DNA of 54,559 nucleotides from Deltaproteobacteria bacterium (GCA_019308745.1 JAFDHO010000006.1:1-54559); one strand, 5' to 3'. Positions 9,919-40,433 are shown, counted from the stretch's first letter. Notes: generated by a model not told the origin, from the letters alone. Program-made: numbers and translations.

Positions 9919-12318
9919 TTAGGGCATGACGACAAGTTCCTTGAGAAAACTCCTTACTTCGTTGGGCAGCCATGTGAATTCGACGTGTATCTTGAAGGAC
10001 GGCATGTCGGAGGCCGGTGATTCAACGGACAGGACCTTGGCATAGAACCCGGGAAGGCCTGTAGCATTCTCCGGTTTGAGAAGGATCTTGATGTTGGAGC
10101 GAAGTTCGAGTTCCTGTTCAGTGAGAACTTCAGCCCTGGAGTCCCCGAAGCGAGCCAGATAGCCGGGAGCGGACGTTCCCGTCACTATTTTGTCTTCCAA
10201 CCGGTGGCAGATGATGGGAATGGGTTCTTCAAGTTTGAAAGTCTGGTCAATCTTCCTCCCAACCAAGTTGATTTCGTATTTGCCCCGAATGCCTTTCACG
10301 TCATAGAGGGTAACCGGCTGGTCGACGCCTTTGAACTGGACCTCTATCTTTCCACTGACGTGGACAAGGTCTTTGACCTTTTCATAGGTGGAGGGGCTGA
10401 TCAAGATCTGACCACCCGTGGTGTAGGATTCCACCCGATAGGCGGTGTTGATGGGGCTACCGATGGCGCTGTACTTGGCACGTTCCTCGGAGCCGATGTT
10501 CCCTACCACAACCTCTCCAGTATTTATGCCGATACCCATGAGGAGCTCCGGCAGGTTGAGACGGCGCTGTTCACGATTGATCTCTTGCATCCTGTTCTGC
10601 ATTTCTATGGCGCATGCCAGGGCGCGCTCGTGGTCATCGGGAGCACTGAGGGGGGCACCAAAAAAGGTGAGGAGGCCGTCGCCCTCAATCTCGTTGAGGG
10701 TGCCCCTATATCGGCCGATAACTTTGACCATTTCACTCAAATACCGGTTGAGCATGCTGATTACCTCCTGGGGGGTCAGTTTCATTGACAGGGCGGTAAA
10801 TCCACGTAAATCAGATACCAGGAAGGTCACCTCTCGAATCTCCCCGCCCATTTCCAGGCCGCCCGGAGAGCCGAGCAGTTCTTCCACCACTTCACGGCTC
10901 AAGTATCGCCCAAAGGTCTGCCGGATGAAATCCCGCTGGCGCACGCTTTCCATCCTTTGCCTTTCTTCACGAACATAACGGTAGGCCAAAATGGAGACCA
11001 CAGCAAACAGGGACATGAGGAGAGGACGTACTAACGGGAAAATAAGGCCCCAGTAGAGAAAGCCGGCGCTTGCAACAGCCGTGTAGAGGCCCGTCAAGAA
11101 AAGGGCGCCCGTAGAAAAATAGATCGATGAAAACCAAAGAGAAAGTAGAAAGATAAGAGCCAGGAGCCCTATTTCTATCAAGAGCATCTCCATCGCGGAG
11201 AGTTCTTTCAAGAAAGAACCCGTCAGGATCCCGTGCATAATATTGGCATGGACACCGCTGAGAGGGAAATTGGCATCCGTGGGGACCGGCCCCACATCGG
11301 TAGAGCCTGTGGAGACATCGGAGATAACAACGATTTTCCCCTGCATCTCTTTGCGCCACATGTCCATTTCAATGCGACTTTCCGAGGCCAATAGGATATC
11401 GGCAAAACTGTAATGATCCATTCTACCCCAGGGACCGACGTAGTTAACAATCATGTTACCGTGCCTGTCAACGGGGATCACGATATCATGGGGCTGTTCT
11501 CGCCCCGGCCTTTGCGCATGTCTCAAGGTAATACTGTCTCCCGGCCTCACAAGGATGTTCTCCGGGGGTACCTTGAGGTAGTCACAAATCACGCGGAATG
11601 GTAAGAGGGGATAATAGGCTCCTCCGTAGCGGACCAGGAGGGGAACACGGCGTAAGACCCCGTCGCGGTCGAATTTGATGCTCAGGGATCCGAGGCCGGC
11701 GGATGCATGGGCCAAACCGGGGAAAGTGGTCAGTGGATCCGAACCGACATAAAAGGATGACGGTTCTCCTTCGGATTTCAGTTCCCATTTGGTCTGGTCC
11801 AGATAGGGGTTTGGGTCGGGCGCGCCCCTGTTTCCCTTAGGCAGCTGGTCCCTGTGCCACAACTTAAAGGCCAAGGCAAAATAGACGGTGCCGGCATCAC
11901 CCGTGGCGTTGATAAGCATATCATCGTCCTTTTCCCCCAGCCGTGCCGCAAAGATGAAGTCATAGACCTGCGAAGAAACCCCCATAGATGACAGGTTCTG
12001 GATTACTCTAGCAAAGTGTGCCCTGCTCAGATAGTGGTCCTCAAGTCGCTTGATGCTTGTGTTGTTCAGATCCACGTGGACGATGGTATCATCGTAGGGG
12101 AGGCGAAATCTCTCCGATGAGGCGCGGATCTGGAAGAGTTGATCTATGGCTTGGCTGTTCCAGGACTCAAAGACGTTGGGGAGGAGCCAAAAACAGAAGT
12201 GGGCGGCAAGAAATGAACACAGGATCAAGACGATTGTGACTCGCAAGGTATTTTCCCTATTGGTGGTCAATCGTAAAGGTCCTGCTGTAGAATTTTTTCC
12301 CCGAAATATCAACCGCAA
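9919..12318 (-). CDS. CHASE2-domain class III adenylate/guanylate cyclase with PilZ-like C-terminus
   Basis: Up to 799 residues. After an N-terminal membrane helix (TIVLILCSFLAAHFCFWLL), about 50-385 is a periplasmic CHASE2 sensor, followed by three membrane helices and the cytoplasmic cyclase domain (about 495-660). Metal-binding aspartates are present (VSDLRGFT, EIEGDGLL) and the catalytic Asn/Arg pair is in INTAYRVES; the position that is usually Asp in GDxVN is Ser (GSPIN), so nucleotide preference is unclear. The last ~120 residues look like a PilZ-type barrel without the RxxxR motif. The frame opens with TTG at 12318, inside the DUF4384 gene; the TTG at 12270, after agcagga, is an alternative start. 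Confidence 0.9.
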   Translation of the reverse strand: MRLIFRGKNSTAGPLRLTTNRENTLRVTIVLILCSFLAAHFCFWLLPNVFESWNSQAIDQLFQIRASSERFRLPYDDTIVHVDLNNTSIKRLEDHYLSRAHFARVIQNLSSMGVSSQVYDFIFAARLGEKDDDMLINATGDAGTVYFALAFKLWHRDQLPKGNRGAPDPNPYLDQTKWELKSEGEPSSFYVGSDPLTTFPGLAHASAGLGSLSIKFDRDGVLRRVPLLVRYGGAYYPLLPFRVICDYLKVPPENILVRPGDSITLRHAQRPGREQPHDIVIPVDRHGNMIVNYVGPWGRMDHYSFADILLASESRIEMDMWRKEMQGKIVVISDVSTGSTDVGPVPTDANFPLSGVHANIMHGILTGSFLKELSAMEMLLIEIGLLALIFLLSLWFSSIYFSTGALFLTGLYTAVASAGFLYWGLIFPLVRPLLMSLFAVVSILAYRYVREERQRMESVRQRDFIRQTFGRYLSREVVEELLGSPGGLEMGGEIREVTFLVSDLRGFTALSMKLTPQEVISMLNRYLSEMVKVIGRYRGTLNEIEGDGLLTFFGAPLSAPDDHERALACAIEMQNRMQEINREQRRLNLPELLMGIGINTGEVVVGNIGSEERAKYSAIGSPINTAYRVESYTTGGQILISPSTYEKVKDLVHVSGKIEVQFKGVDQPVTLYDVKGIRGKYEINLVGRKIDQTFKLEEPIPIICHRLEDKIVTGTSAPGYLARFGDSRAEVLTEQELELRSNIKILLKPENATGLPGFYAKVLSVESPASDMPSFKIHVEFTWLPNEVRSFLKELVVMP

Positions 12319-12943
12319 GGCTTGTTACGTCCGGAGTGCCCCTGGTTTGGAGCTTTTCGGTCCCACGCAGGGATCCCATAATGGGCACAGGCTTTTCAGC
12401 GAAGGTCTTGAATCTTCGATTCTTCCATATCAGCGTGCGGATTTCTTCGACGATACTCTTTGCCAGGGCTCTCTTTTTTGCTGGGTCTGCGGTTTCGTAT
12501 TTGTTTATGAGTTCCTCGAGTTCACGCAGACGGGTTGAAGAGGCCAAGAGATAAAAGGTCTCTTGCCCAACATGCTCGTCCAACTGGAACCACTCAGCCC
12601 CCTGTGGGATGAAGTATCGCGCCCCTGAAAGAGCCCCCTGTTCAAAACGATAGGGGAACAGAACGCTCAATTCGCCCTGAGAGCTGTGATAGATGAGATA
12701 GATGAAACCCGGCCTTTCCAGTTTGACAAAGAACTTGATCTGGTCTCCGGTCCTCAGAACCGTGTCGCGGTCAATAGGAATGAGCCTTGCTCCACCTTCA
12801 CCCGTTCTAAGGGCACCAAAGGCCCACAAAAAATGGATGCTCTCTTCTTGGTCGCCTTGATGTTGTGCAGCCGCGATTCCAGACTGGAGAAGGTAATAGG
12901 GCACCAAAGTGATGAATACCAAAATCACCGCCAATCTTTTCAT
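12257..12943 (-). CDS. DUF4384-domain secreted protein
   Basis: 228 residues with a signal peptide (MKRLAVILVFITLVPYYLLQSGIAAA). The core from about 38 to 150 has DUF4384 features: an RTGDQIKFFVKLERPGFIYLIY strand pair, a LSVLFPYR turn and an IPQGAEWFQLDEHVGQETFYLLAS end. DUF4384 domains are small beta-sandwiches often fused or adjacent to caspase-like peptidases; their role is unknown. The gene overlaps the cyclase by up to 62 bases and follows the caspase gene after 84 bases on the same strand. Confidence 0.85.
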   Translation of the reverse strand: MKRLAVILVFITLVPYYLLQSGIAAAQHQGDQEESIHFLWAFGALRTGEGGARLIPIDRDTVLRTGDQIKFFVKLERPGFIYLIYHSSQGELSVLFPYRFEQGALSGARYFIPQGAEWFQLDEHVGQETFYLLASSTRLRELEELINKYETADPAKKRALAKSIVEEIRTLIWKNRRFKTFAEKPVPIMGSLRGTEKLQTRGTPDVTSLAVDISGKKFYSRTFTIDHQ

Positions 12944-13027
12944 TTCTCATCCCCTTTTGGAACTTTGCCAGGCCTCGTGGCCCTTTGGAGAAAGCAAGTG
13001 CCAAATGATTCACAAATGCCCAAGAAA

Positions 13028-14542
13028 TTACTGACTCCGGAGAAAGAAAAGGAACTCTCCCTCCCCCTCCAGCCTGCCGAAAAGGGGAGTCTGGGCATTC
13101 TTGGACGCGTCAGAGACCTTTGGCCGGAGATAGGCCCCCAGTTCCGTGCCCGTGACCACGTTGTCTTTATTAATGTCTGCCTCTCCGTCAAGGGCCCGGA
13201 GAAAGTAGGTGGTAAAGAGGCCATGCCCTTCCCGTTCTTGAACCTGTTCGCCTTTGCCGCCGGCGGTAACGACCTGTATCACCCTCATGGAGGCCACCTT
13301 CCGCAGGTATCCGCTCAGTCCCGGGGAGACACCATAGGACCTGCTGAGCCCAAGGCCTGAATAACAGGAATCCATAACATAGAGTATATGTTTCGCGGTA
13401 ATTCGGCTGGACAGGCTCCTGATTTGCTCCATAGATATGGCAGTTGATGAGTAATTGGATGTATCAGCATCAACAGGAACAATGTACCCTTGCCTGCCCC
13501 CATTGGGTAGTTCTTCGGTTTGGCCATGGCCGGCAAAGTAAAAGATGACTCTATCGTTGCGATGAACCTTTCGCGGGAGTTCGTGGAAGAGCTCCGTTAG
13601 GATTCTCCTCTGTGTAGCCTCCTTGTCAAATATGGTGGTGATTTGATCAAAACCCGTTTCAAAGAGTTTCTGCCTTACGGCCTTTGCATCGTTGACGGCA
13701 AATTCCAGGGGAGGCCACTTCTCATAGTCGTTTATGCCTATGATGACAGCAAAAGACTTGTCGTAGACCTGTCTCGTGGGAGGAGCAAGACCTGTTGCCC
13801 CAGCTTGCGGCAAGGGCGCTTCTTCCCTTTCCACGTCTACGGAGAGACTTGAGCGGTTTCCAACGGTATCAGCAGCCTGAACGGTGACGGTGTTAAGTCC
13901 CAGTTTGATGGGGATGTCCTTAAGAAAATTTCCCCTTCCATCAACAGGCACATCCAGTTGGTTTATCTTGACCCAGGAGACGCCACTCTTGTCCGTAGCA
14001 AGCCCTCGTACCGTAATATTCTCTGACCTGTACTTATAGACGAGTTTCAAGCCGCGACGGGGCGCGGGTTCGAAGAGTATGATCCTGGGTCCGGCCCTGT
14101 CAGAGGCCCTGTCGATTTTCCTCTTCAGATCCAGCGCCCCGGGGTAATCCCCTCTGATATTCAAGGACTTCTTCAAATTCATGTTTGCCCGGTCAAGTTC
14201 CCCTTTTTCAAACAGGAGATCCGCCAGCAGGTAGTACAGCTTGTAGTTCGTGGTCCCCAGTTCGGCCGCCTTGGTGAAGTATTCCAGAGCTTCATCCCTT
14301 CGACCCGCCTTGCGGTAGATATTACCGAGCAGTTCATAGGGCCTGACAAATCCCGGGCACAGCTCAATGGCCTTGAGATAGCTTCGGATTGCCCTTGATT
14401 GGTTCCTGCTATACTTGCCCTTTGAGAAGAAGTGAAGCGCCATGTCGCAATCGCTGGTGCCCCATGTAAAGGGGGCATGAGCGCCCAGAATCAGGCAGGC
14501 TGCCATGGAAAGGAAGAGCCAGCGGGTAATCTTGGAAATCAT
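13028..14542 (-). CDS. caspase-family (C14) peptidase with TPR repeats, exported
   Basis: 504 residues from the ATG at 14542, which opens on a signal peptide (ISKITRWLFLSMAACLILGAHA); a start at 14581 would precede it with a basic leader. Domains in order: TPR repeats (about 30-125), a small beta-sandwich of the kind seen in secreted enzymes (about 152-238), then the p20-type caspase domain (about 262-500). The His-Cys dyad is intact: H339 in FYFAGHGQ and C393 in VMDSCYSG. Such caspases cleave after basic or acidic residues; the target is unknown. It lies between the lipoprotein and DUF4384 genes in one minus-strand run with the cyclase. Confidence 0.92.
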   Translation of the reverse strand: MISKITRWLFLSMAACLILGAHAPFTWGTSDCDMALHFFSKGKYSRNQSRAIRSYLKAIELCPGFVRPYELLGNIYRKAGRRDEALEYFTKAAELGTTNYKLYYLLADLLFEKGELDRANMNLKKSLNIRGDYPGALDLKRKIDRASDRAGPRIILFEPAPRRGLKLVYKYRSENITVRGLATDKSGVSWVKINQLDVPVDGRGNFLKDIPIKLGLNTVTVQAADTVGNRSSLSVDVEREEAPLPQAGATGLAPPTRQVYDKSFAVIIGINDYEKWPPLEFAVNDAKAVRQKLFETGFDQITTIFDKEATQRRILTELFHELPRKVHRNDRVIFYFAGHGQTEELPNGGRQGYIVPVDADTSNYSSTAISMEQIRSLSSRITAKHILYVMDSCYSGLGLSRSYGVSPGLSGYLRKVASMRVIQVVTAGGKGEQVQEREGHGLFTTYFLRALDGEADINKDNVVTGTELGAYLRPKVSDASKNAQTPLFGRLEGEGEFLFFLRSQ

Positions 14543-14615
14543 GTGCGATCCCATAGTCGGAAAATGCCGGCGCCCGCACACACGTTACCACGGTGCCGGA
14601 TCGGGCTGGATAAAG

Positions 14616-15395
14616 CTATATTTCCTCTTCGATTATCCCCTGCGCGGCATTGATCCTGAAATTATCGAATTCACCAACAACCACGGCCTGAGCCCCTATG
14701 GATTTTCTCTTCATGGTGAAGTTCTGGAGCACAAGACCAACCTGGGCGTTGTTACCACTGGAGGGGAAGGTGTTGGTCCTTATCCATCTGCCGTTGCCTC
14801 TCCTGTATAAGGTGCTTACTTTGTCGCCTATCCTTACGATTCGCAGGCTCCCCTTGAAGTCACCGGTGGGATGCCAGCTCTTCCCCAGAATGGTCCTTCC
14901 ATGGCGGTAGCTTGCGAATATCCCGCTTCGCTCTTGACCGGCCTTGAGTATGGTAATGGCCATCATCCTGTTCCATTGGGGCCTTTTTCCCCGTTCAATG
15001 GCGGCGAACCCGATCACTTGGTCAAGGTCTGTCGCTCCCCTGACAAAGGTCATTGCGCAGTCAATTTGAATGTCAAAGTCCCCTTTCAGCTCATACTTTG
15101 CCACAAGTCCGCCTTTACTGAATGTTCCGACCTGTGTTTCAATGATCAGGTGCCCTTTTTCAATCTTCATGTCCGCCGATTCATAGTTTTGCAATTGATC
15201 TTCTGAATACACAAAACCCGACTTTTCCCACAAATCTTCCCGTAGTCTGTCAAAGGGATCATTGTAATAGGCCAACCTACTTTGGGGCAGGCTGTTTTGT
15301 ATATCAAAGGAAAGTTGTTGGGCGATACAGGCCCCAAGGAAGATAAGTGAAACGGCCAGAAAGGCAAGACGTATCCTCGCATCTATCTCCTTCAT
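14616..15395 (-). CDS. lipoprotein with concanavalin/LamG-like fold (hypothetical)
   Basis: 259 residues from the ATG at 15395, preceded by a gggggtagc ribosome site. The N-terminus is a lipoprotein signal (LAFLAVSLIFLGAC, lipobox LGAC). The mature part is beta-rich with patterns like GHLIIETQVGTF, GDFDIQIDCAMTF and NAQVGLVLQNF, as in jelly-roll glycan-binding proteins (3-keto-disaccharide hydrolase/LamG type), but I recognise no catalytic site. It heads the caspase-DUF4384-cyclase group, 73 bases before the caspase start. Envelope location is likely; function unknown. Confidence 0.75.
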   Translation of the reverse strand: MKEIDARIRLAFLAVSLIFLGACIAQQLSFDIQNSLPQSRLAYYNDPFDRLREDLWEKSGFVYSEDQLQNYESADMKIEKGHLIIETQVGTFSKGGLVAKYELKGDFDIQIDCAMTFVRGATDLDQVIGFAAIERGKRPQWNRMMAITILKAGQERSGIFASYRHGRTILGKSWHPTGDFKGSLRIVRIGDKVSTLYRRGNGRWIRTNTFPSSGNNAQVGLVLQNFTMKRKSIGAQAVVVGEFDNFRINAAQGIIEEEI

Positions 15396-17726: not shown

Positions 17727-17742
17727 GTCTTTTATATACTTT

Positions 17743-17935
17743 CAGGTGTCCCAGTGGGACTTAATAGGGAACTCCGTTAGAATCGGGGACGGGCCCGCCG
17801 CTGTAACCCCGCCCTTTTCCATTGTATAGTGGAAGAGGGAACCCTTTAGTAAATTTTTGCCACTGTTCCTTTTCTAGGGATGGGAAGGCTGCTAAAAGGG
17901 CGGGGGAGTCAGAAGACCTGCCTGAAAGCTTGGGT
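17743..17935 (+). promoter_or_regulatory. cobalamin (adenosylcobalamin-type) riboswitch
   Basis: Conserved core segments appear in the correct order: a GGTGTCCC-type P2 opening, GGGAA, the junction GCCGCTGTAACC, GCCACTG, GGGAAGG and the B12 box at 17907-17922 (AGTCAGAAGACCTGCC). The element binds cobalamin and shuts off downstream transcription or translation. Here it lies directly before a TonB receptor and BtuFCD genes, so the sensed molecule and imported molecule agree. The open frame that crosses it is not a gene. Confidence 0.97.
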
Positions 17936-17988
17936 ATGACCTTCGAGGAACGGGGTCACCCCGAGGATCTTGAGGATAAAAACGGGAT

Positions 17989-20242: not shown

Positions 20243-21142
20243 ATGAGGAATTGTAAGGCCATATTCTTTGCATTTCTATCCGTCTTGATACTGGGACATG
20301 CGAAAGAGGCTGGGAGTGAAACTTTCAAGGATGCCCTGGGAAGACAGGTGGAACTGAGGGAGGTTCCCTCCAGCCTTATCCCCCTCGCCCCTAGCCTCAC
20401 GGAGATCCTCTATTTCCTGGGGCTGGGAGATAGGGTGGTCGGTGTTACCACCTTCAGCCAATATCCCCCTGAGGCGAGAAAAAAACCCAAGGTTGGGAGT
20501 TATATCAACCTAAACGTGGAAAAGATCATCAGCCTGTCTCCCGACCTGGTTATTGGCACTGTGGATGGAAATGAGCCGAGGGTGATTGACATCCTGGAGC
20601 AGGCAGGCACTAAGGTCTATATCGTCAATCCCCGGAATGTGGAGGAACTGTTAGAAACCATCGTAAAGGTGGGGGAGGTATGCGGCATACCTCAAAGGGC
20701 TCAAAGACTGGCTGTAGAATTGCGGCGGCCTGTTTCAAGGATAGAAAGAAAGACCAGGCTTCTCAGGAAGCCCCTGGTCTTTCTGCAGATCAATATCAAG
20801 CCCATCATGACGGTAAACAGACATACGTTCCAGCATGACCTCATAAGGTTGGCAGGCGGCGTGAATATGGCGCGGGACGAGAAGGTCCCCTATCCCCGTA
20901 TTAATATTGAAGAAGTGATCAAAAGAAAGCCAGATGTCATCCTTATATCATCTATGGAAAGGGGCGGGCTGTTTGAGCGGGCAAGAAAGGAATGGCTGAA
21001 ATGGATTACTATTCCTGCAGTAAGAGATAGCCGGGTCCACCTTGTCGACTCTGACCTCATTGATAGGCCTTCGCCGAGGTTTACTAGGGGGCTGGAGGTG
21101 ATGGCTGCCCTGATCCATCCTGAAGTGAAATGGGAAGAATAG
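20243..21142 (+). CDS. btuF: ABC transporter periplasmic binding protein, cobalamin (BtuF-like)
   Basis: 299 residues with a signal peptide (MRNCKAIFFAFLSVLILGHA). Class III binding-protein features: DALGRQVELREVPSSLIPLAPSLTEIL at the start of the mature protein, then VVGVTTFSQYPPEA and VGSYINLNVEKIISLSPDLVI, then the long inter-lobe helix. This fold carries B12, haem and siderophores. The stop is followed immediately by the btuC ATG. The ribosome site is weak, consistent with coupling to btuB 87 bases upstream. Confidence 0.92.
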   Translation: MRNCKAIFFAFLSVLILGHAKEAGSETFKDALGRQVELREVPSSLIPLAPSLTEILYFLGLGDRVVGVTTFSQYPPEARKKPKVGSYINLNVEKIISLSPDLVIGTVDGNEPRVIDILEQAGTKVYIVNPRNVEELLETIVKVGEVCGIPQRAQRLAVELRRPVSRIERKTRLLRKPLVFLQINIKPIMTVNRHTFQHDLIRLAGGVNMARDEKVPYPRINIEEVIKRKPDVILISSMERGGLFERARKEWLKWITIPAVRDSRVHLVDSDLIDRPSPRFTRGLEVMAALIHPEVKWEE

Positions 21143-22177
21143 ATGTCTAATATTCCGCTAAAGAGACCCCTGAATCCAGGACGTGTGATTTTCATCTCCC
21201 TGTTGATGTTTCTGCTTCTCCTCGTAACAATGGGGGCTTCACTGGTGTTGGGGACGGCAGAGATAGGGATACATCAGGCCCTGGACGTCTTTTCGGGCTC
21301 ATTGCAGGCCGATGATTCGGCAAAGTTGATTCTCTTGAGGGTCAGGCTTCCCAGGATCATTCTGGCGGGCCTTGTGGGTTTCTCCCTTTCCATGGGCGGG
21401 ACAATCTTCCAGGCGCTCCTCCGTAACCCCCTTGCAGACCCTTTCATACTAGGCATTTCCAGCGGGGCCGCCTTTGGCGCCGTGACAGGAATCGTCCTGG
21501 GTTTGACCTTTGCCCTGGGTGTTCCCCTGATGTCATTTGCGGGAGCCTTGGTGACTATTTATCTTGTCATGGTCCTGGGAAGCCGCAAAATGGGGATGGA
21601 GTCTTCCACCATCCTTTTGACCGGAGTGATTATCAATGCCTTCTTCACCGCAATCATCATGTTTTTCGTGTCCACGGCATTTGACAGCCGGCTCCATACC
21701 ATGCTCTTCTGGCTCTATGGAGACCTTTCCCAGAGCCGCTACGGCTCCCTTGCTATCATAGGCCCTGCCTTGGTTCTTGCATCGATCGTCCTGTACGGGT
21801 ATTCAAAGGAGCTGAACCTTATTACGGCAGGAGACGAAACGGCGGTCCAGTTGGGAGTCGAGGTCGAGAGGGCAAAAAAAATCTGTCTTGTGGTGGTGTC
21901 CCTCGTCATCGGACTGGTCGTTTCGTTTTCGGGCCTGATTGGTTTTGTAGGGCTGATCATTCCCCACATGGGGAGGATGATTTTTGGTTCGGATCATCGT
22001 CTCCTGATCCCGGTGTCGGCCTTTGGTGGTGCCATCTTCCTGATTGTCGCCGATACCCTTGCCAGAACACTGGTATCGCCCAGCGAGTTGCCCGTAGGCG
22101 TTATCACCGCGTTTGCAGGCGCGCCTTTCTTTATCTACCTCCTCAGAAGGAGAGGAAGCGGATGGAACCGGGCATGA
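21143..22177 (+). CDS. btuC: FecCD-family ABC permease, cobalamin (BtuC-like)
   Basis: 344 residues with about ten membrane helices. FecCD/BtuC signatures: RLPRIILAGLVGFSLSMGGTIFQALLRNPLADPFILGISSGAAFGA near the N-terminus and GLIGFVGLIIPHMGRMIFG in the second half, which forms the coupling helix with the ATPase. Cytoplasmic membrane. It overlaps btuD by 16 bases. Confidence 0.95.
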   Translation: MSNIPLKRPLNPGRVIFISLLMFLLLLVTMGASLVLGTAEIGIHQALDVFSGSLQADDSAKLILLRVRLPRIILAGLVGFSLSMGGTIFQALLRNPLADPFILGISSGAAFGAVTGIVLGLTFALGVPLMSFAGALVTIYLVMVLGSRKMGMESSTILLTGVIINAFFTAIIMFFVSTAFDSRLHTMLFWLYGDLSQSRYGSLAIIGPALVLASIVLYGYSKELNLITAGDETAVQLGVEVERAKKICLVVVSLVIGLVVSFSGLIGFVGLIIPHMGRMIFGSDHRLLIPVSAFGGAIFLIVADTLARTLVSPSELPVGVITAFAGAPFFIYLLRRRGSGWNRA

Positions 22178-22941
22178 TCTTAGAGCGGGTCGCATTCAAG
22201 TATGCTGCCCTCTGGGTCCTAAGGGGGATAGAACTCGAGATTGCGCCAGGTGAGATACTGGGGGTGCTGGGCCCCAACGGTTCAGGAAAGAGCACGCTGC
22301 TCAAGATCATGGACGGAATGCTTTCGCCGCAAGAGGGAAGAGTCCTGTTGAGAGACCGGAATCTTTCCTCCTTTGGCAGAGCGGCCATAGCAAGGGAGAT
22401 CGCCATGGTTGCCCAGGAGAATCACTTTAGATTCTCGTTTCCAGCCCTCGAAGTGGTCCTCATGGGTCGCTTTCCACATCTCAAGAGACTCCAGTTTGAA
22501 AGTGATAGGGACATGGAGATAGCACTGAGTTGCATGGAAGCAACAAATACCAGGGAACTTGCTGATCGTTCCATCCACGAACTCTCGGGCGGAGAAAAGC
22601 AGAGGGTTCTGATAGCACGGGCGCTAGCCCAGGAGCCAAAGATCATTCTCCTGGATGAACCTACATCCTTTCTTGACCTGAAACACAAGAGGGACATATT
22701 TCACCTGATCTCTACACTGACCAGAAATCGGGGGTTGAGCGTGGTGGTCATATCACACGATATTGACATCGCAACCCAATACTGTCACAGGGTATTGTTG
22801 CTGAAGGATGGATGTATTTATAGCATCGGGGAACCGGAAAAGGTCATAACATCAGAAACGATCAGCGCAGTCTATGATTGCCCTGTACTGGTAGACAGGA
22901 GCCCGGCGACGGGAAGACCGAGGGTAAACTTGGCGGTATGA
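22162..22941 (+). CDS. btuD: ABC transporter ATP-binding protein, cobalamin (BtuD-like)
   Basis: 259 residues. Walker A GPNGSGKST, Q-loop MVAQENH, signature ELSGGEKQRV, Walker B IILLDEPTSFLD and the switch His in VVVISHDID are all present. It powers the BtuC permease. Confidence 0.95.
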   Translation: MEPGMILERVAFKYAALWVLRGIELEIAPGEILGVLGPNGSGKSTLLKIMDGMLSPQEGRVLLRDRNLSSFGRAAIAREIAMVAQENHFRFSFPALEVVLMGRFPHLKRLQFESDRDMEIALSCMEATNTRELADRSIHELSGGEKQRVLIARALAQEPKIILLDEPTSFLDLKHKRDIFHLISTLTRNRGLSVVVISHDIDIATQYCHRVLLLKDGCIYSIGEPEKVITSETISAVYDCPVLVDRSPATGRPRVNLAV

Positions 22942-35197: not shown

Positions 35198-35803
35198 ATG
35201 AAATTGACGGAAAAACAAAAGGCATTCCTGGAATACATCTACAGGTATCTGGAGGAATGGGGACGATCTCCGAGTTTTGACGAAATATGCTCCCACTTCG
35301 GCTTCAGATCCTATAATACGGTCACTACCTATCTCAGGACCCTGGAGCGAAAGGGATACATCAGTCTCCCGGGGAAAAAGAACCAGAAGCGGGCAATTAG
35401 GGTCATCAGCCCCGTGGAAACAAAGAGGTTTGAACTCCCCCTCCTGGGGAAGGTGGCCGGGGGTAAACCCATAGAGGCGGTGGAAGACGTAAACGCCATT
35501 GAGGTCCCGCCCTCAATGGCAGGAAAAGGAGAGCATTTCGTCCTCCAGGTCAGAGGTGACTCCATGAAGGAGGACGGGATCCTGGACGGGGATTTCATCG
35601 TGGTTCGCAGGCAGCCAACGGCCGACAACGGCGAGATCGTGGTGGCCCTCGTCAACAACGAGGCTACCGTGAAAAGGTATTACAAAAGGGAAGACCATGT
35701 GGAACTAAGACCCGCCCACGGGGAAATGGCCCCCATTATTGTCAGGGGCGGGGACCTGCGTATTGAGGGAAAGGTGGTTGGAGTGATGAGGCAGTACATG
35801 TAG
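35198..35803 (+). CDS. lexA: LexA SOS repressor
   Basis: 201 residues; ATG at 35198 after a strong aggagggaaact ribosome site. The N-terminal winged helix (1-70: MKLTEKQKAFLEYIYRYLEE, then YNTVTTYLRTLERKGYI) binds the SOS box. The cleavage site is A87-G88 (GKVAGGKP), and the serine-lysine dyad is S122 (GDSMKEDGI) and K159 (EATVKRYY). RecA-stimulated self-cleavage derepresses SOS genes. It precedes imuB and dnaE2, the usual targets. The lexA box was not identified with certainty; GGTTGAGCATTGGCGAGAACC-like sequence at 35083-35105 is a candidate. Confidence 0.95.
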   Translation: MKLTEKQKAFLEYIYRYLEEWGRSPSFDEICSHFGFRSYNTVTTYLRTLERKGYISLPGKKNQKRAIRVISPVETKRFELPLLGKVAGGKPIEAVEDVNAIEVPPSMAGKGEHFVLQVRGDSMKEDGILDGDFIVVRRQPTADNGEIVVALVNNEATVKRYYKREDHVELRPAHGEMAPIIVRGGDLRIEGKVVGVMRQYM

Positions 35804-35823
35804 AGCAGGGTGTCTTATCTTGT

Positions 35824-36130
35824 CAGGCTGTTGCTCAAAGCGCGACAAGAATGGTGTTTAGCCCCTTGGGAGGTCTTTTCACAAGGCCCAATATTCGACC
35901 CAAGCTTTTGTCCGCCGCCCATAAGCCTCATAGTCATCGCCTCACAGGCACAGAAGATAGGGGCTCCGGTGGAGATGACCTCCTGGGGCTATTAGGGCCT
36001 TTTGTTAAGTGTTTCGTGCCGTTGCCAATGCCTGGGAGGAATTTGATTGAGCCTTGTGAAAAGGCCTCCCAAGGGGCTGCAGAGTCCTTATTGGGGATAA
36101 AACAAATAAAAGGCCTTGGGCACCGGCCTG
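35824..36130. repeat. palindromic repeat element B, between lexA and imuB (307 bp)
   Basis: The outer ends (CAGGCTGTTGCTCAAAG at the left, complement of TTGGGCACCGGCCTG at the right) and inner ends (35861-35887 with 36051-36077, one mismatch, starting GCCCCTTGGGAGG) are inverted repeats. The inner 217 bases are similar to element A in the same orientation. It interrupts the lexA-imuB interval. Confidence 0.8.
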
Positions 36131-36211
36131 TTATGTTTTACATTCAACTCCGGAGAGACGAACAATCCTTGATTATGGACTAAAAGCACGATCTGTTAGG
36201 AGAGTTGGGTA

Positions 36212-37390
36212 TTGCTTCGCCACATTATCCATCTTCATATCCCTGCCTTTGCCATTGCCGTAGCCCGGGTTTGTGAGCCGGGGTTGCGGGAACGCCCCGT
36301 GGCACTGGCACCGCTCCACTCAGAGCGGGCCCTCATTCTTTCTTCCTCATACGAGGCCCGAAGGGAAGGCGTTTACCGGGGGATGCCCCTTAGAAAGGCC
36401 ATCAGGTTTTGTCCTGACCTGAGAGTAATCCCTCCCGATTTAGGACTTACAGAAAGGGCGTGGAGAGAGCTGATCAGGGTAGCAACTCAATATACCCCCC
36501 TGTGGGAGCCTTTTCGCCCTGGACACGTGTATCTGGACATGACAGGCACTGAACGACTCTGGGGAAGGGCAAAGGATGCGGCCAGCCGTTTCAGGAGAGA
36601 GATCAAAAAGCGTTTACAATTGCCCGGGACGGTCGGGGTGGCGGGCAACAAAATGGTCTCCAGCATTGCATCCCGAATCCTGCGCGCCGAAGGAGTCCTG
36701 GACGTAGACCACGGCCGGGAACCCCTGTTCATGGCCCCCCTCAAGGTGGACATGCTTCCAGGTATAGGACATGTTCGCCGGAGGATTCTCCTGGAAGAAC
36801 TGAACATCACCCTGGTTCGGGAGATAGCAGCAATGGACATGGGGAGCCTGAGGATAGTCTTTGGCAAGGAAGCCTACATGATCCGCCAGAGGGCTGTAGG
36901 CATCGACCCCACTCCGGTCTGCCCGCCCAGGGCGAAACCAGTGGTCTCCGAGGAGGTTGTCCTTGCGGGGGATGAAAACGATGACGAGAAGCTCCTTTCA
37001 GCACTGTACGGATTGGTTGAGAAGTGTGCTTCTAAACTTCGAGCCAGGTCCCTGGCCCCCCGGAGGGCAGGGTTGATCATCAGGTACGCGGACCAGGAAG
37101 AGGTTACTCGCAGGATCAACCTCCCAAGGCCCAGCTTCTGGGATTTCGAGCTTTACAGGTCCATGGAAAGGTTGTTTCTTAAGGCCTGCCGGCGCCGGGT
37201 TCGGGTCAGGTTCATGAAGGTATGGTTCAGGGATTTTTCAGCACCCGACCCCCAGCTCACCCTTTTTGCAGCAGCTCCCCATGACAGAGAGAAAAAGGCC
37301 GGGGCAATCCTGGCCCTGGACCGGATCCGGGAGAGGTATGGCGGGGAGGCGATTAAGTATGGAAGAACAGTACGGATTTGTTCACCTTAA
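36212..37390 (+). CDS. imuB: ImuB-like inactive Y-family DNA polymerase
   Basis: 392 residues, TTG start at 36212 after a taggaga site. The Y-family fold is clear (RPVALAPLHSERALILSSSYEARREGVYRGMPLRKAIRFCP; LPGIGHVRRRIL helix-hairpin-helix). The catalytic carboxylates are lost: the first motif reads HLHIPAF where active enzymes have xDxD, and the second reads PGHVYLDMT where they have DE (positions 104-105). The C-terminal QLTLF (near 350) is a sliding-clamp-binding motif. It acts as the clamp-bound scaffold for DnaE2 in SOS mutagenesis. Its last 32 bases overlap dnaE2. No imuA gene is present. Confidence 0.9.
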   Translation: MLRHIIHLHIPAFAIAVARVCEPGLRERPVALAPLHSERALILSSSYEARREGVYRGMPLRKAIRFCPDLRVIPPDLGLTERAWRELIRVATQYTPLWEPFRPGHVYLDMTGTERLWGRAKDAASRFRREIKKRLQLPGTVGVAGNKMVSSIASRILRAEGVLDVDHGREPLFMAPLKVDMLPGIGHVRRRILLEELNITLVREIAAMDMGSLRIVFGKEAYMIRQRAVGIDPTPVCPPRAKPVVSEEVVLAGDENDDEKLLSALYGLVEKCASKLRARSLAPRRAGLIIRYADQEEVTRRINLPRPSFWDFELYRSMERLFLKACRRRVRVRFMKVWFRDFSAPDPQLTLFAAAPHDREKKAGAILALDRIRERYGGEAIKYGRTVRICSP

Positions 37391-40300
37391 TGTGCATTCT
37401 CACTATTCCAAGGGCTGGGGTATGGGTACCCTGGAAGAGCTCTGCCGGACCGCCAAGGAGCAGGGAATGGAACGGCTCGCCCTGACGGATACAAATGCCC
37501 TCTATGGCATGGTCTTTTTTATTCAGGCGGCCAGGGAGGTGGGGATAAAACCCATTGTCGGGGGTGAAATCCAAACCCCGGAGCACCGGGCGGTCCTGCT
37601 GGTACGAAACAGGGAGGGATATGCCAACCTGTGCCGGATCATCTCGGACCGCCACTGCCACCAGGACTTTGACATGATCCGATCCTTGAGGGAGAGACGT
37701 AAGGGGCTGATCATCTTTTCCGACGATTTCAAGGTGCTCAAGGCCCTTAGGGGAGATTCCATGGAGGATCTCTATGTAGAGATGTCACCGGGCTACAACA
37801 TGGCGGCCTGTTATGCCTTCTCCAGGAGGAGCGGGGTGCCTCCCTTGGCCACCAATAGGGTCTACCTGGCAAGGAAAGACCAGCTTCAGCTTCACCGGAT
37901 CCTCAGGGCCATTGACATGAACACCAAGCTGTCGAGGCTCACCTATGGGGACACATGCAGAGAGCACAATTATCTCGCGAGTCCAGGGGTCATGATAGAG
38001 CAGTTCCCTCATGCCCCCCAGGCGATTTGCAATACCCTTGAGGTGGCGGGGGCCTGTTTATCGGACTGGGACTTTTCAAAGATCATATTCCCTACCTTTG
38101 AGGGACTGGATGACAGAGGGGCCTTTGAGCGCCTCTATCAGGAAACCCTGGAGGGATGCCGGCGGCGATATGGAGAGATAACCCCGGCGATTCGGGAAAG
38201 GGTGGAGCATGAGATGAAAATCATCCGGGAGAAAAATTTTGCCCATTATTTTCTGGTTGTTGCCGACATTACCAGGAGGGCCAATCGTTCCTGCGGGAGG
38301 GGGAGTGCGGCTGCCTCCATCGTCTCCTATGCACTGGGGATAACCCATGTGGACCCCGTAAAACATCGCCTGTTCTTTGAGCGATTTTTGAATCCCGGCA
38401 GAATGGATCCCCCGGACATTGACGTGGATTTTGCGTGGGATGAAAGGGATCGGATCATTGACTATGTATTTGCCAAGTACGGGGCCGCCAGGACCGCCAT
38501 GGTCGCAAACCACAACACCTTTGGCGCCCGATCGGCCCTCAGGGAAGTTGCAAAGGTCTTTGGATTGACAGGATCGGAGATCAGTCACGTAACGAGCAAG
38601 ATCGGTTTCGGATGGCGTCTAAAGAGGGTCTGGAGGGAACTGGAGCACCACCCGAAGATGAGAGGGATAGAGTTCAAGAAGCCCTGGGACGAGATCCTCC
38701 ATGCCGCCGTCCGTTTAGAGGATCATCTAGATCATCTTTCCATTCACTGCGGGGGTGTTGTCGTCGTGCCCGACGAGATCCGGAGATACTGCCCGGTGGA
38801 GATATCCGCGAGCGGGGTCCAGGTGCTCCAGTGGGAGAAGGACTCCGTTGAAGAGGGGGGGTTGGTCAAGATAGATGTGCTGGGGAATCGGAGCTTGGCG
38901 GTCATCCGGGATGCCCTCGAGCTGGTAGAGAGGAACTACGGACGGCGAATCGATTACGGGGACTGGAACCCGGTCGATGACCCCGAGACGGTAGAGATCT
39001 TCTACAGGGGAGATACGATCGGTGTGTTTTACTTCGAAAGCCCGGCCACAAGGCAGGTGCTAAAGAAGGTTCAATCCGTGTATACCCTTGAAGAGTACTT
39101 CCGCCAGGACCACTTTCATTTGAACGTGGTGGTCACCTCCATTATCAGGCCTGCATCCAATGATAGTATCCATACCTGGGTCTCTCGGCTGAAGGGGCAA
39201 CCCTGGGATTACCCCCACCCCCTCTTGGAACCGGTATTGAAAGAGACCCTGGGTGTCATGGTTTTTCAGGAGCAATTGAGCCAGGCGGCGATTCACCTTG
39301 CAGGATTCGATGCAGCAGAGGCCGACGCCCTCAGGAAGGTCGTGAGTAAAAAAGACAGGGAAAAGAGGCTCCGGGACTTCTATGCCCGGTTTGACAAGGC
39401 GGCCAGGGAGAGGGGGGTTGCTCCAAAGGTAATAGAGGAGGTATGGCAGATGATTATGGGTTTTGATGGCTACAGTTTTTGCAAGCCCCATTCGGCCAGC
39501 TATACCTTGGTGGCCTACAAGTCCGCCTACCTGAGGGCCCACTACCCGGCCGAGTCCATGGCCTCGGTCATTTCAAATGGCGGGGGGTACTATTCCACCT
39601 TTGGCTATCTATCTGAAGCGAGGCGAATGGGGCTCCAGATCCTCCCCCCGGATATCAACCGGAGCGAGATCAAGTACACGGGAAAAGAACGGCATATACG
39701 GGTCGGTCTCATGCAGTTGAAGGATATCTCCGGAGAGGCCAGGGAAGCAATCATCCATGAAAGGGAAAGGCGGGGCCCCTTTGAATCCCTGGAGGAGTTT
39801 CTCAATCGAATGGCCTTCCATATCCATCTCCAGGATGTCAGGGTGCTGATCAAGGCGGGTTGCTTTGATAGCATTGCTTCAGGGCTCCCCAGATCCGGTC
39901 TTGTATGGCAGGCACTGCGGTTTTTTTCAAAGAAAGAGGAACGAAAGACACGGGACCTGTTTTCCCTTTCCCCGGGGAAGGGAACCGAGAACATCTACGG
40001 ACATTATCCTCGGAAGCTAATACTGAGGAATGAAATGGAGACCCTGGGATTTCTCCTCTCTATCCACCCCCTGGAGCAATACAAGGATCGTTTGAGGGGG
40101 TTGAAATACGTGAAGGCCGCTGAGCTTTCATCCCACGTGGGTGAGGCGGTCGCCACTATCGGGTGGCTGGTGACAGGGAAGACGGTGCAAACGAAAGAGG
40201 GTGATCCCATGAAATTCGTCTCTTTTGAGGATACCACCGGACTTTATGAGACCGTGTTTTTTCCGGAGGCCTATCACCGGTTCTGCCACATGCTTACCGG

Positions 40301-40433
40301 ATCCAGGCCCTACATTTTGAAGGGACGAGTGGGGGAGGAGTTTGGGGCACTTACCCTTGCGGTCTCCTGGATGGGTTTTCTGGACAGACGCGTAAAAGCA
40401 CCCACGGAAGAGGCCCAAATCACTCAATTGTGA
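37359..40433 (+). CDS. dnaE2: error-prone DNA polymerase III alpha subunit DnaE2
   Basis: 1024 residues from the ATG at 37359 (ribosome site ggggaggcgattaagt). Domains: N-terminal PHP (HLNVHSHYSKGWG, LALTDTNALYG), palm with catalytic aspartates D353 and D355 (PPDIDVDF) and D506 (VKIDVLG), fingers (SCGRGSAAAS, CKPHSASYTLVAYKSAYLR) and a C-terminal OB fold (GWLVTGKTVQTKEGDPMKFVSFED). DnaE2 makes translesion copies with ImuB under SOS control. Overlap with imuB indicates translational coupling. Confidence 0.94.
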   Translation: MEEQYGFVHLNVHSHYSKGWGMGTLEELCRTAKEQGMERLALTDTNALYGMVFFIQAAREVGIKPIVGGEIQTPEHRAVLLVRNREGYANLCRIISDRHCHQDFDMIRSLRERRKGLIIFSDDFKVLKALRGDSMEDLYVEMSPGYNMAACYAFSRRSGVPPLATNRVYLARKDQLQLHRILRAIDMNTKLSRLTYGDTCREHNYLASPGVMIEQFPHAPQAICNTLEVAGACLSDWDFSKIIFPTFEGLDDRGAFERLYQETLEGCRRRYGEITPAIRERVEHEMKIIREKNFAHYFLVVADITRRANRSCGRGSAAASIVSYALGITHVDPVKHRLFFERFLNPGRMDPPDIDVDFAWDERDRIIDYVFAKYGAARTAMVANHNTFGARSALREVAKVFGLTGSEISHVTSKIGFGWRLKRVWRELEHHPKMRGIEFKKPWDEILHAAVRLEDHLDHLSIHCGGVVVVPDEIRRYCPVEISASGVQVLQWEKDSVEEGGLVKIDVLGNRSLAVIRDALELVERNYGRRIDYGDWNPVDDPETVEIFYRGDTIGVFYFESPATRQVLKKVQSVYTLEEYFRQDHFHLNVVVTSIIRPASNDSIHTWVSRLKGQPWDYPHPLLEPVLKETLGVMVFQEQLSQAAIHLAGFDAAEADALRKVVSKKDREKRLRDFYARFDKAARERGVAPKVIEEVWQMIMGFDGYSFCKPHSASYTLVAYKSAYLRAHYPAESMASVISNGGGYYSTFGYLSEARRMGLQILPPDINRSEIKYTGKERHIRVGLMQLKDISGEAREAIIHERERRGPFESLEEFLNRMAFHIHLQDVRVLIKAGCFDSIASGLPRSGLVWQALRFFSKKEERKTRDLFSLSPGKGTENIYGHYPRKLILRNEMETLGFLLSIHPLEQYKDRLRGLKYVKAAELSSHVGEAVATIGWLVTGKTVQTKEGDPMKFVSFEDTTGLYETVFFPEAYHRFCHMLTGSRPYILKGRVGEEFGALTLAVSWMGFLDRRVKAPTEEAQITQL

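Follow-up and report, generated by a model that had tools for sequence, protein, structure and literature searches.

A candidate envelope-facing signalling operon grouping an exported caspase homologue with a DUF4384 protein and a CHASE2 receptor cyclase

Why should a gene for an exported caspase homologue lie beside one for a membrane receptor predicted to make a cyclic nucleotide? The question is posed by four genes in a DNA stretch from a Deltaproteobacteria bacterium (GCA_019308745.1 JAFDHO010000006.1:1-54559; hereafter the window, meaning all 54,559 nt analysed, to which coordinates refer), located on contig 2 of a draft genome of 5.06 Mb in 418 contigs. Open reading frame (ORF) analysis places the genes on the minus strand, transcribed from 15395 to 9919 in the order lipoprotein, caspase, DUF4384 protein and CHASE2 cyclase (Table 1). 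Intergenic gaps are short, and the DUF4384 and cyclase genes overlap or almost touch; because the downstream neighbour, an isochorismatase-type gene, is convergent and the upstream neighbour divergent, the operon is taken to comprise four genes. ORFs and Pfam matches bear out the four same-strand genes described in an earlier note made from the sequence alone (the original prediction). We give about an even chance to the view that the four genes form a signalling operon facing the envelope: the exported caspase and a periplasmic DUF4384 protein would act on the CHASE2 receptor, or together with it, and the receptor would make a cyclic nucleotide within the cell.

Table 1. Features of the window, with the basis of each assignment
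Feature	Position	Strand	Basis
Lipoprotein, 259 aa; lipobox LGAC; ConA-like jelly-roll fold (lectin/GH16-like)	14616..15395	-	ORF, structure model, Foldseek
Caspase homologue (C14); signal peptide, tetratricopeptide repeats (TPRs), immunoglobulin (Ig)-like Glucodextran_B, C14 with His339/Cys393	13028..14542	-	Pfam, alignment, motif check
DUF4384 protein, 228 aa; signal-peptide-like N-terminus	12257..12943	-	Pfam, homologues
CHASE2 receptor-class III cyclase; N-terminal transmembrane helix, CHASE2, transmembrane bundle, cyclase, C-terminal PilZ-like domain	9919..12270	-	Pfam, PDB alignment, hydropathy
GAG codon of the Glu aligned with Cya2 E488, guanine-type purine selector	10690..10692	-	Alignment to 2w01, 6fht
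PilZ-fold domain, C-terminal in the cyclase, apparently degenerate	9922..10260	-	Model (pLDDT 80), Foldseek
Cobalamin riboswitch (RF00174, 92.8 bits)	17727-17939	+	
Consecutive genes: LexA-like repressor, impB/mucB/samB-type Y-family polymerase, DNA polymerase III alpha type	35198-40433	+	

The argument for a functional unit comes from gene neighbourhoods. Co-occurrence is counted solely in a receptor-seeded search of 395 genomes of the phylum; loci found by way of caspases were selected for caspases, are biased that way and are excluded from the figure. Besides the window, the receptor-seeded search yields seven orthologues (49-63% identity), an eighth match (31% identity, SpoIIE-like output) having been set aside. 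A DUF4384 gene adjoins the receptor in all seven. A C14-FGE caspase lies directly upstream on the same strand in five (L144, L145, L146, L148, L149), so that an architecture known from C14-FGE-sulfatase metacaspases (PMC3501461) fills the caspase slot in five genomes; it differs from the TPR-Ig-C14 arrangement of the window, and the available part of that source describes no CHASE2 neighbourhood. No caspase was found at L143, and the region examined around L147 (genome G006) gives no caspase match. In a further genome of the window's own family (G014, L162), a receptor orthologue is divergent from an Ig-domain lipoprotein whose caspase domain has only begun when the contig ends.

Among the caspase-seeded loci, the complete four-gene same-strand operon recurs in L055 and L062, both metagenome-assembled genomes (MAGs) of Desulfobacteraceae, and the MAG locus L060 carries a convergent version, with a lipoprotein-caspase pair facing a DUF4384-like-CHASE2 pair. 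CHASE2 genes also occur near other caspases (L063, L067, L073, L082, L119); at L082, the caspase adjoins a CHASE2 protein without a recognised output. In Omnitrophota, L063:5663-9952 (+) encodes a lipoprotein caspase, an exported protein without a Pfam family and a CHASE2-SpoIIE phosphatase, a non-cyclase output. For the four families, whose neighbourhood in Desulfobacterota the original prediction proposed to search, the full set proves rare and the DUF4384-CHASE2-caspase core recurrent. Since caspases of different architecture appear repeatedly beside the DUF4384-CHASE2 pair, a functional link of caspase, DUF4384 protein and CHASE2 cyclase is suggested. Mere chance would suit the fact that only three genomes hold the complete same-strand set, but the adjacency recurs in several families, whereas the density of C14 domains (137 matches in 198 genomes of ~3 Mb each) would put one within 3 kb of ~0.1% of receptors; that these are chance neighbours forming no functional unit is scarcely credible.

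How general is the association? DUF4384 genes adjoin every CHASE2 orthologue examined, and proximity of DUF4384 to caspases is general in the phylum sample: among its 71 DUF4384 domains, 36 have a C14 domain no more than 3 kb away. In a family survey of 198 genomes, G105 is the only case besides the window with CHASE2 and C14 less than 5 kb apart among the CHASE2 matches listed; that listing missed low-scoring members, and the orthologue search was used instead. G105 itself is not counted as a caspase-CHASE2 neighbour, its caspases and its FecR-like gene with CHASE2 cyclase being separated by other genes. Among the matches listed, CHASE2-caspase proximity thus appears specific to this receptor subfamily, and the caspase link is a property of that subfamily, not one shown for CHASE2 generally. 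The original prediction's remark that these genes are already known as neighbours is not supported as it stands: DUF4384 and caspases are commonly close in the sample, CHASE2 and caspases rarely so among the listed matches; no paper describing this gene set or a CHASE2-caspase neighbourhood was found in the open-access literature. In the window's genome, the operon caspase is the sole C14 match and the operon receptor one of four CHASE2 proteins. A plasmid collection gave no DNA match.

The caspase matches C14 (PF00656) with E=8e-16 and 58.9 bits against a cut-off of 21.4, along with TPRs and Glucodextran_B (E=2e-9). Its start is probably the ATG at 14542, since the protein then begins with a clean signal peptide. 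The catalytic dyad is intact, as had been claimed, with His339 in YFAGHGQ and Cys393 in MDSCYSG, and the motifs correspond in all 19 caspases compared (the window's and 18 relatives, C14-FGE type included). Alignment places Asp285 and Asp391, the latter two residues ahead of the Cys, at metacaspase-type S1 positions, which we take to line the acidic S1 pocket in metacaspases (TbMCA2) and MALT1; cleavage after Lys or Arg is therefore predicted. Compared with PDB sequences, the C14 domain finds its closest relatives in weak matches to MALT1 and GSU0716. A metacaspase-CHASE2 fusion of the cyanobacterium Trichodesmium (PMC3501461) also joins the two domains, there in one protein; its caspase domain is N-terminal and predicted to be cytoplasmic, unlike the separate exported protein of the window.

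The remaining components are a partner and a receptor. The DUF4384 protein matches its Pfam family with E=1e-13 and has no meaningful match among PDB sequences. At L165:6556-9622 (+), a DUF4384 gene overlaps a CHASE2 gene that belongs to another subfamily, and upstream of them lies a gene that by eye is FecR-like. The receptor matches CHASE2 (PF05226; E=4.5e-35) and Guanylate_cyc (E=1.5e-23). The listed TTG start of its ORF (12318) is well inside the DUF4384 gene; TTG 12270, which overlaps the DUF4384 stop, or TTG 12246 is more likely, and a Shine-Dalgarno-like sequence precedes both. Hydropathy locates transmembrane helices at 3-21, 354-372 and 396-414 (775-aa numbering), one before and two after the sensor, where the expected CHASE2 layout has one and three. 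In the established CHASE2 topology, the sensor is periplasmic. Caspase and CHASE2 are accordingly both predicted, from hydropathy and motifs, to face the periplasm and not opposite sides of the membrane, and three of the four products carry export signals as anticipated: a lipobox in the lipoprotein, a signal peptide in the caspase and a signal-peptide-like N-terminus in the DUF4384 protein.

The catalytic domain of the receptor finds its best PDB match in Synechocystis Cya2 (2w01; E=1e-62; PMC5995499). Both metal-binding Asp residues are kept, those of SDLRGF and EGDG aligning with Cya2. A Glu occupies the Cya2 E488 position in alignments to 2w01 and 6fht, and this purine-selecting residue, common to both proteins, leads to the prediction that the window cyclase is a guanylate cyclase making cyclic GMP (cGMP); at the second selector position, Ser replaces the Gly of Cya2, and guanine specificity is less clear there. 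With Lys at this position (E488K), Cya2 shows adenylate cyclase activity (PMC5995499). Beyond the catalytic domain compared with Cya2, the window protein also has its CHASE2 sensor and, as a tail, the PilZ-like domain. What had been called a cyclic nucleotide monophosphate cyclase is a class III cyclase by Pfam, with the generic output narrowed to a predicted cGMP.

The tail has a PilZ fold in its model and is apparently degenerate: Foldseek ranks PilZ proteins highest (top E=4e-4, TM 0.63), Pfam PilZ gives no match in it, and neither of the cyclic di-GMP motifs RxxxR and D/NxSxxG is seen by eye. Matches covering most of the length of cyclase plus tail exist elsewhere in the same family, some of the examples bearing the guanylate-type Glu and one a Lys. 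A related cyclase at L161 retains NxSxxG in its C-terminal PilZ-like domain, unlike the apparently degenerate tail of the window. A cyclase beside a caspase also recalls anti-phage or programmed-death systems, in which a Pycsar-like cyclase would be joined to a caspase effector, and PADLOC profiles for PycC and caspase do match. The PycC match (E=5e-20), however, is a domain-level one, shared by class III cyclases at large. Here the cyclase sits in the membrane and has a periplasmic sensor, the caspase is an exported protein, no Pycsar effector is among the four genes of the operon, which ends at 9919, and none of the flanking genes checked by Pfam is a defence gene. A defence role is very improbable.

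The lipoprotein reaches no Pfam family above cut-off (DUF1583, E=0.0086). Its AlphaFold2 model, built from ten homologues (mean predicted local distance difference test, pLDDT, 89.9), matches ConA-like jelly rolls in the PDB, namely GH16 glucanases, xyloglucanases, and legume-type and Emp46/47 lectins, in keeping with its earlier description as lectin-like. The GH16 catalytic motif ExDxxE is not seen in the protein, from which we infer a binding rather than a catalytic role. Close homologues lie directly upstream of a TPR-Ig caspase, and at L056 a second lipoprotein copy is fused to the caspase N-terminus. The family is rare, clear in two of the 395 genomes with the window's counted. At L143:3443-3868 (-), a lipoprotein-gene relic with in-frame stops immediately precedes a DUF4384-CHASE2 cyclase pair that is intact; the same genome (G073) retains an intact lipoprotein on another contig.

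Such partial sets might mean that the operon holds two pairs, a DUF4384-CHASE2 receptor pair of the FecR-CHASE2 or MtxA-CHASE2 type and a caspase-lipoprotein pair for separate envelope processing, merely co-expressed with it. The pairs are separable, lipoprotein-caspase standing alone in L057, L058 and L061 and DUF4384-CHASE2 in G006 (L147), and CHASE2 receptors with exported partner genes are published as an FecR-CHASE2 kinase (PMC5192318) and an MtxA-CHASE2 cyclase (PMC4439547). The Magnetospirillum MtxA operon likewise has an exported-protein gene followed by a CHASE2-adenylate cyclase gene, and periplasmic signalling was proposed for it; MtxA is described as lacking homology to known proteins, and caspase or DUF4384 is not described there (PMC4439547). 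The Burkholderia FecR/LysM-CHASE2 biofilm operon shares the exported partner gene and variable cytoplasmic domains, but its output is a histidine kinase with a response regulator and it has no protease (PMC5192318). As partners of CHASE2 receptors, DUF4384 and FecR proteins may do much the same work. Simple co-expression, however, does not predict the recurrence of caspases of different architecture beside one receptor subfamily, and we hold the two-pair account rather unlikely.

A caspase tied to the receptor could still act after it. The receptor would then sense the envelope, its product, cGMP or cyclic AMP (cAMP), would govern whether the exported caspase is expressed or released, and the caspase would cleave envelope proteins. 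Caspase and receptor do share an operon, and different architectures in the same slot are what an interchangeable effector would give. No CRP-like site was found upstream of the operon, CRP-type matches over the window being at chance level, and with caspase and receptor apparently on one transcript the product would also control its own receptor. A downstream effector is therefore unlikely in our estimate.

Of the readings considered, the likeliest is signalling in the periplasm that depends on the caspase and passes through CHASE2, and several observations weigh against it. All five C14-FGE cases belong to a single family-level group and are not independent; as judged from gene order, the caspase link spans families and protease architectures, with fewer than five independent cases in that set. 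Two of the seven orthologues (G006, G073) have no adjacent intact caspase, and lipoprotein-caspase pairs occur without a nearby receptor in L058 and, with less flanking sequence, in L057 and L061. Signal peptides were assigned by eye, motif and hydropathy, and topology by motif and hydropathy, not with a dedicated predictor.

The outputs of the orthologues vary. The guanylate type with a PilZ-like tail is found in the window, L062 and L143; the adenylate type (Lys/Thr) without the tail is found in L055, L067 and L144-L149. L062 shares 63% identity with L055 in CHASE2 and 36% in the cyclase, and 55% and 65%, respectively, with the window. In the CHASE2 tree, L062 groups with adenylate-type proteins (support 99/98), whereas in the cyclase tree the guanylate types form one clade (support 100/100); both trees have few rows, and the sensor tree has one very long branch. 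Given this conflict, the output module was most likely swapped on a conserved CHASE2 sensor, suggesting that the same sensor can be coupled in turn to a cyclase predicted to make cAMP or to one predicted to make cGMP. In sequence comparison, the DUF4384 protein, CHASE2 receptor and exported caspase behave as one unit in evolution, in which the protease and the output can each be exchanged.

In its specific form, which we offer tentatively as possible rather than probable, the proposal is of a second-messenger receptor gated by an exported caspase, with periplasmic proteolysis passing through DUF4384 and CHASE2 to cytoplasmic cGMP or cAMP and with protease architecture and cyclase both exchangeable. 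The ConA-fold lipoprotein would position the caspase at the envelope, as the lipoprotein-caspase fusion in one relative hints. The caspase, once triggered, would cleave DUF4384 or the CHASE2 ectodomain after Lys or Arg, and the resulting change in the receptor would alter cyclase activity, the predicted product being cGMP here and, in most relatives, cAMP. That the protease acts upstream of the cyclase, and on which substrate, we infer; these are the least certain parts of the scheme. The link between proteolysis and cyclic-nucleotide output put forward in the original prediction gains from recurrent adjacency and from the full operon in L055 and L062 as a functional association; its mechanism is a proposal, and the envelope-stress role suggested with it finds no support here.

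Elsewhere in the window, the cobalamin riboswitch precedes a TonB-dependent receptor and a Peripla_BP_2/FecCD/ABC transporter set (20243-22941), a region that looks like a B12 uptake locus. The TTG listed as the start of this receptor (17822) is itself part of the riboswitch, which makes a later true start probable. The row of LexA-like repressor and polymerase genes looks like a DNA-damage mutasome cassette.

To our knowledge, the signals sensed by bacterial caspases and by CHASE2 domains are largely unknown. In the conserved association of one CHASE2 subfamily with an exported caspase, each has a partner that can be tested and an output that can be measured.

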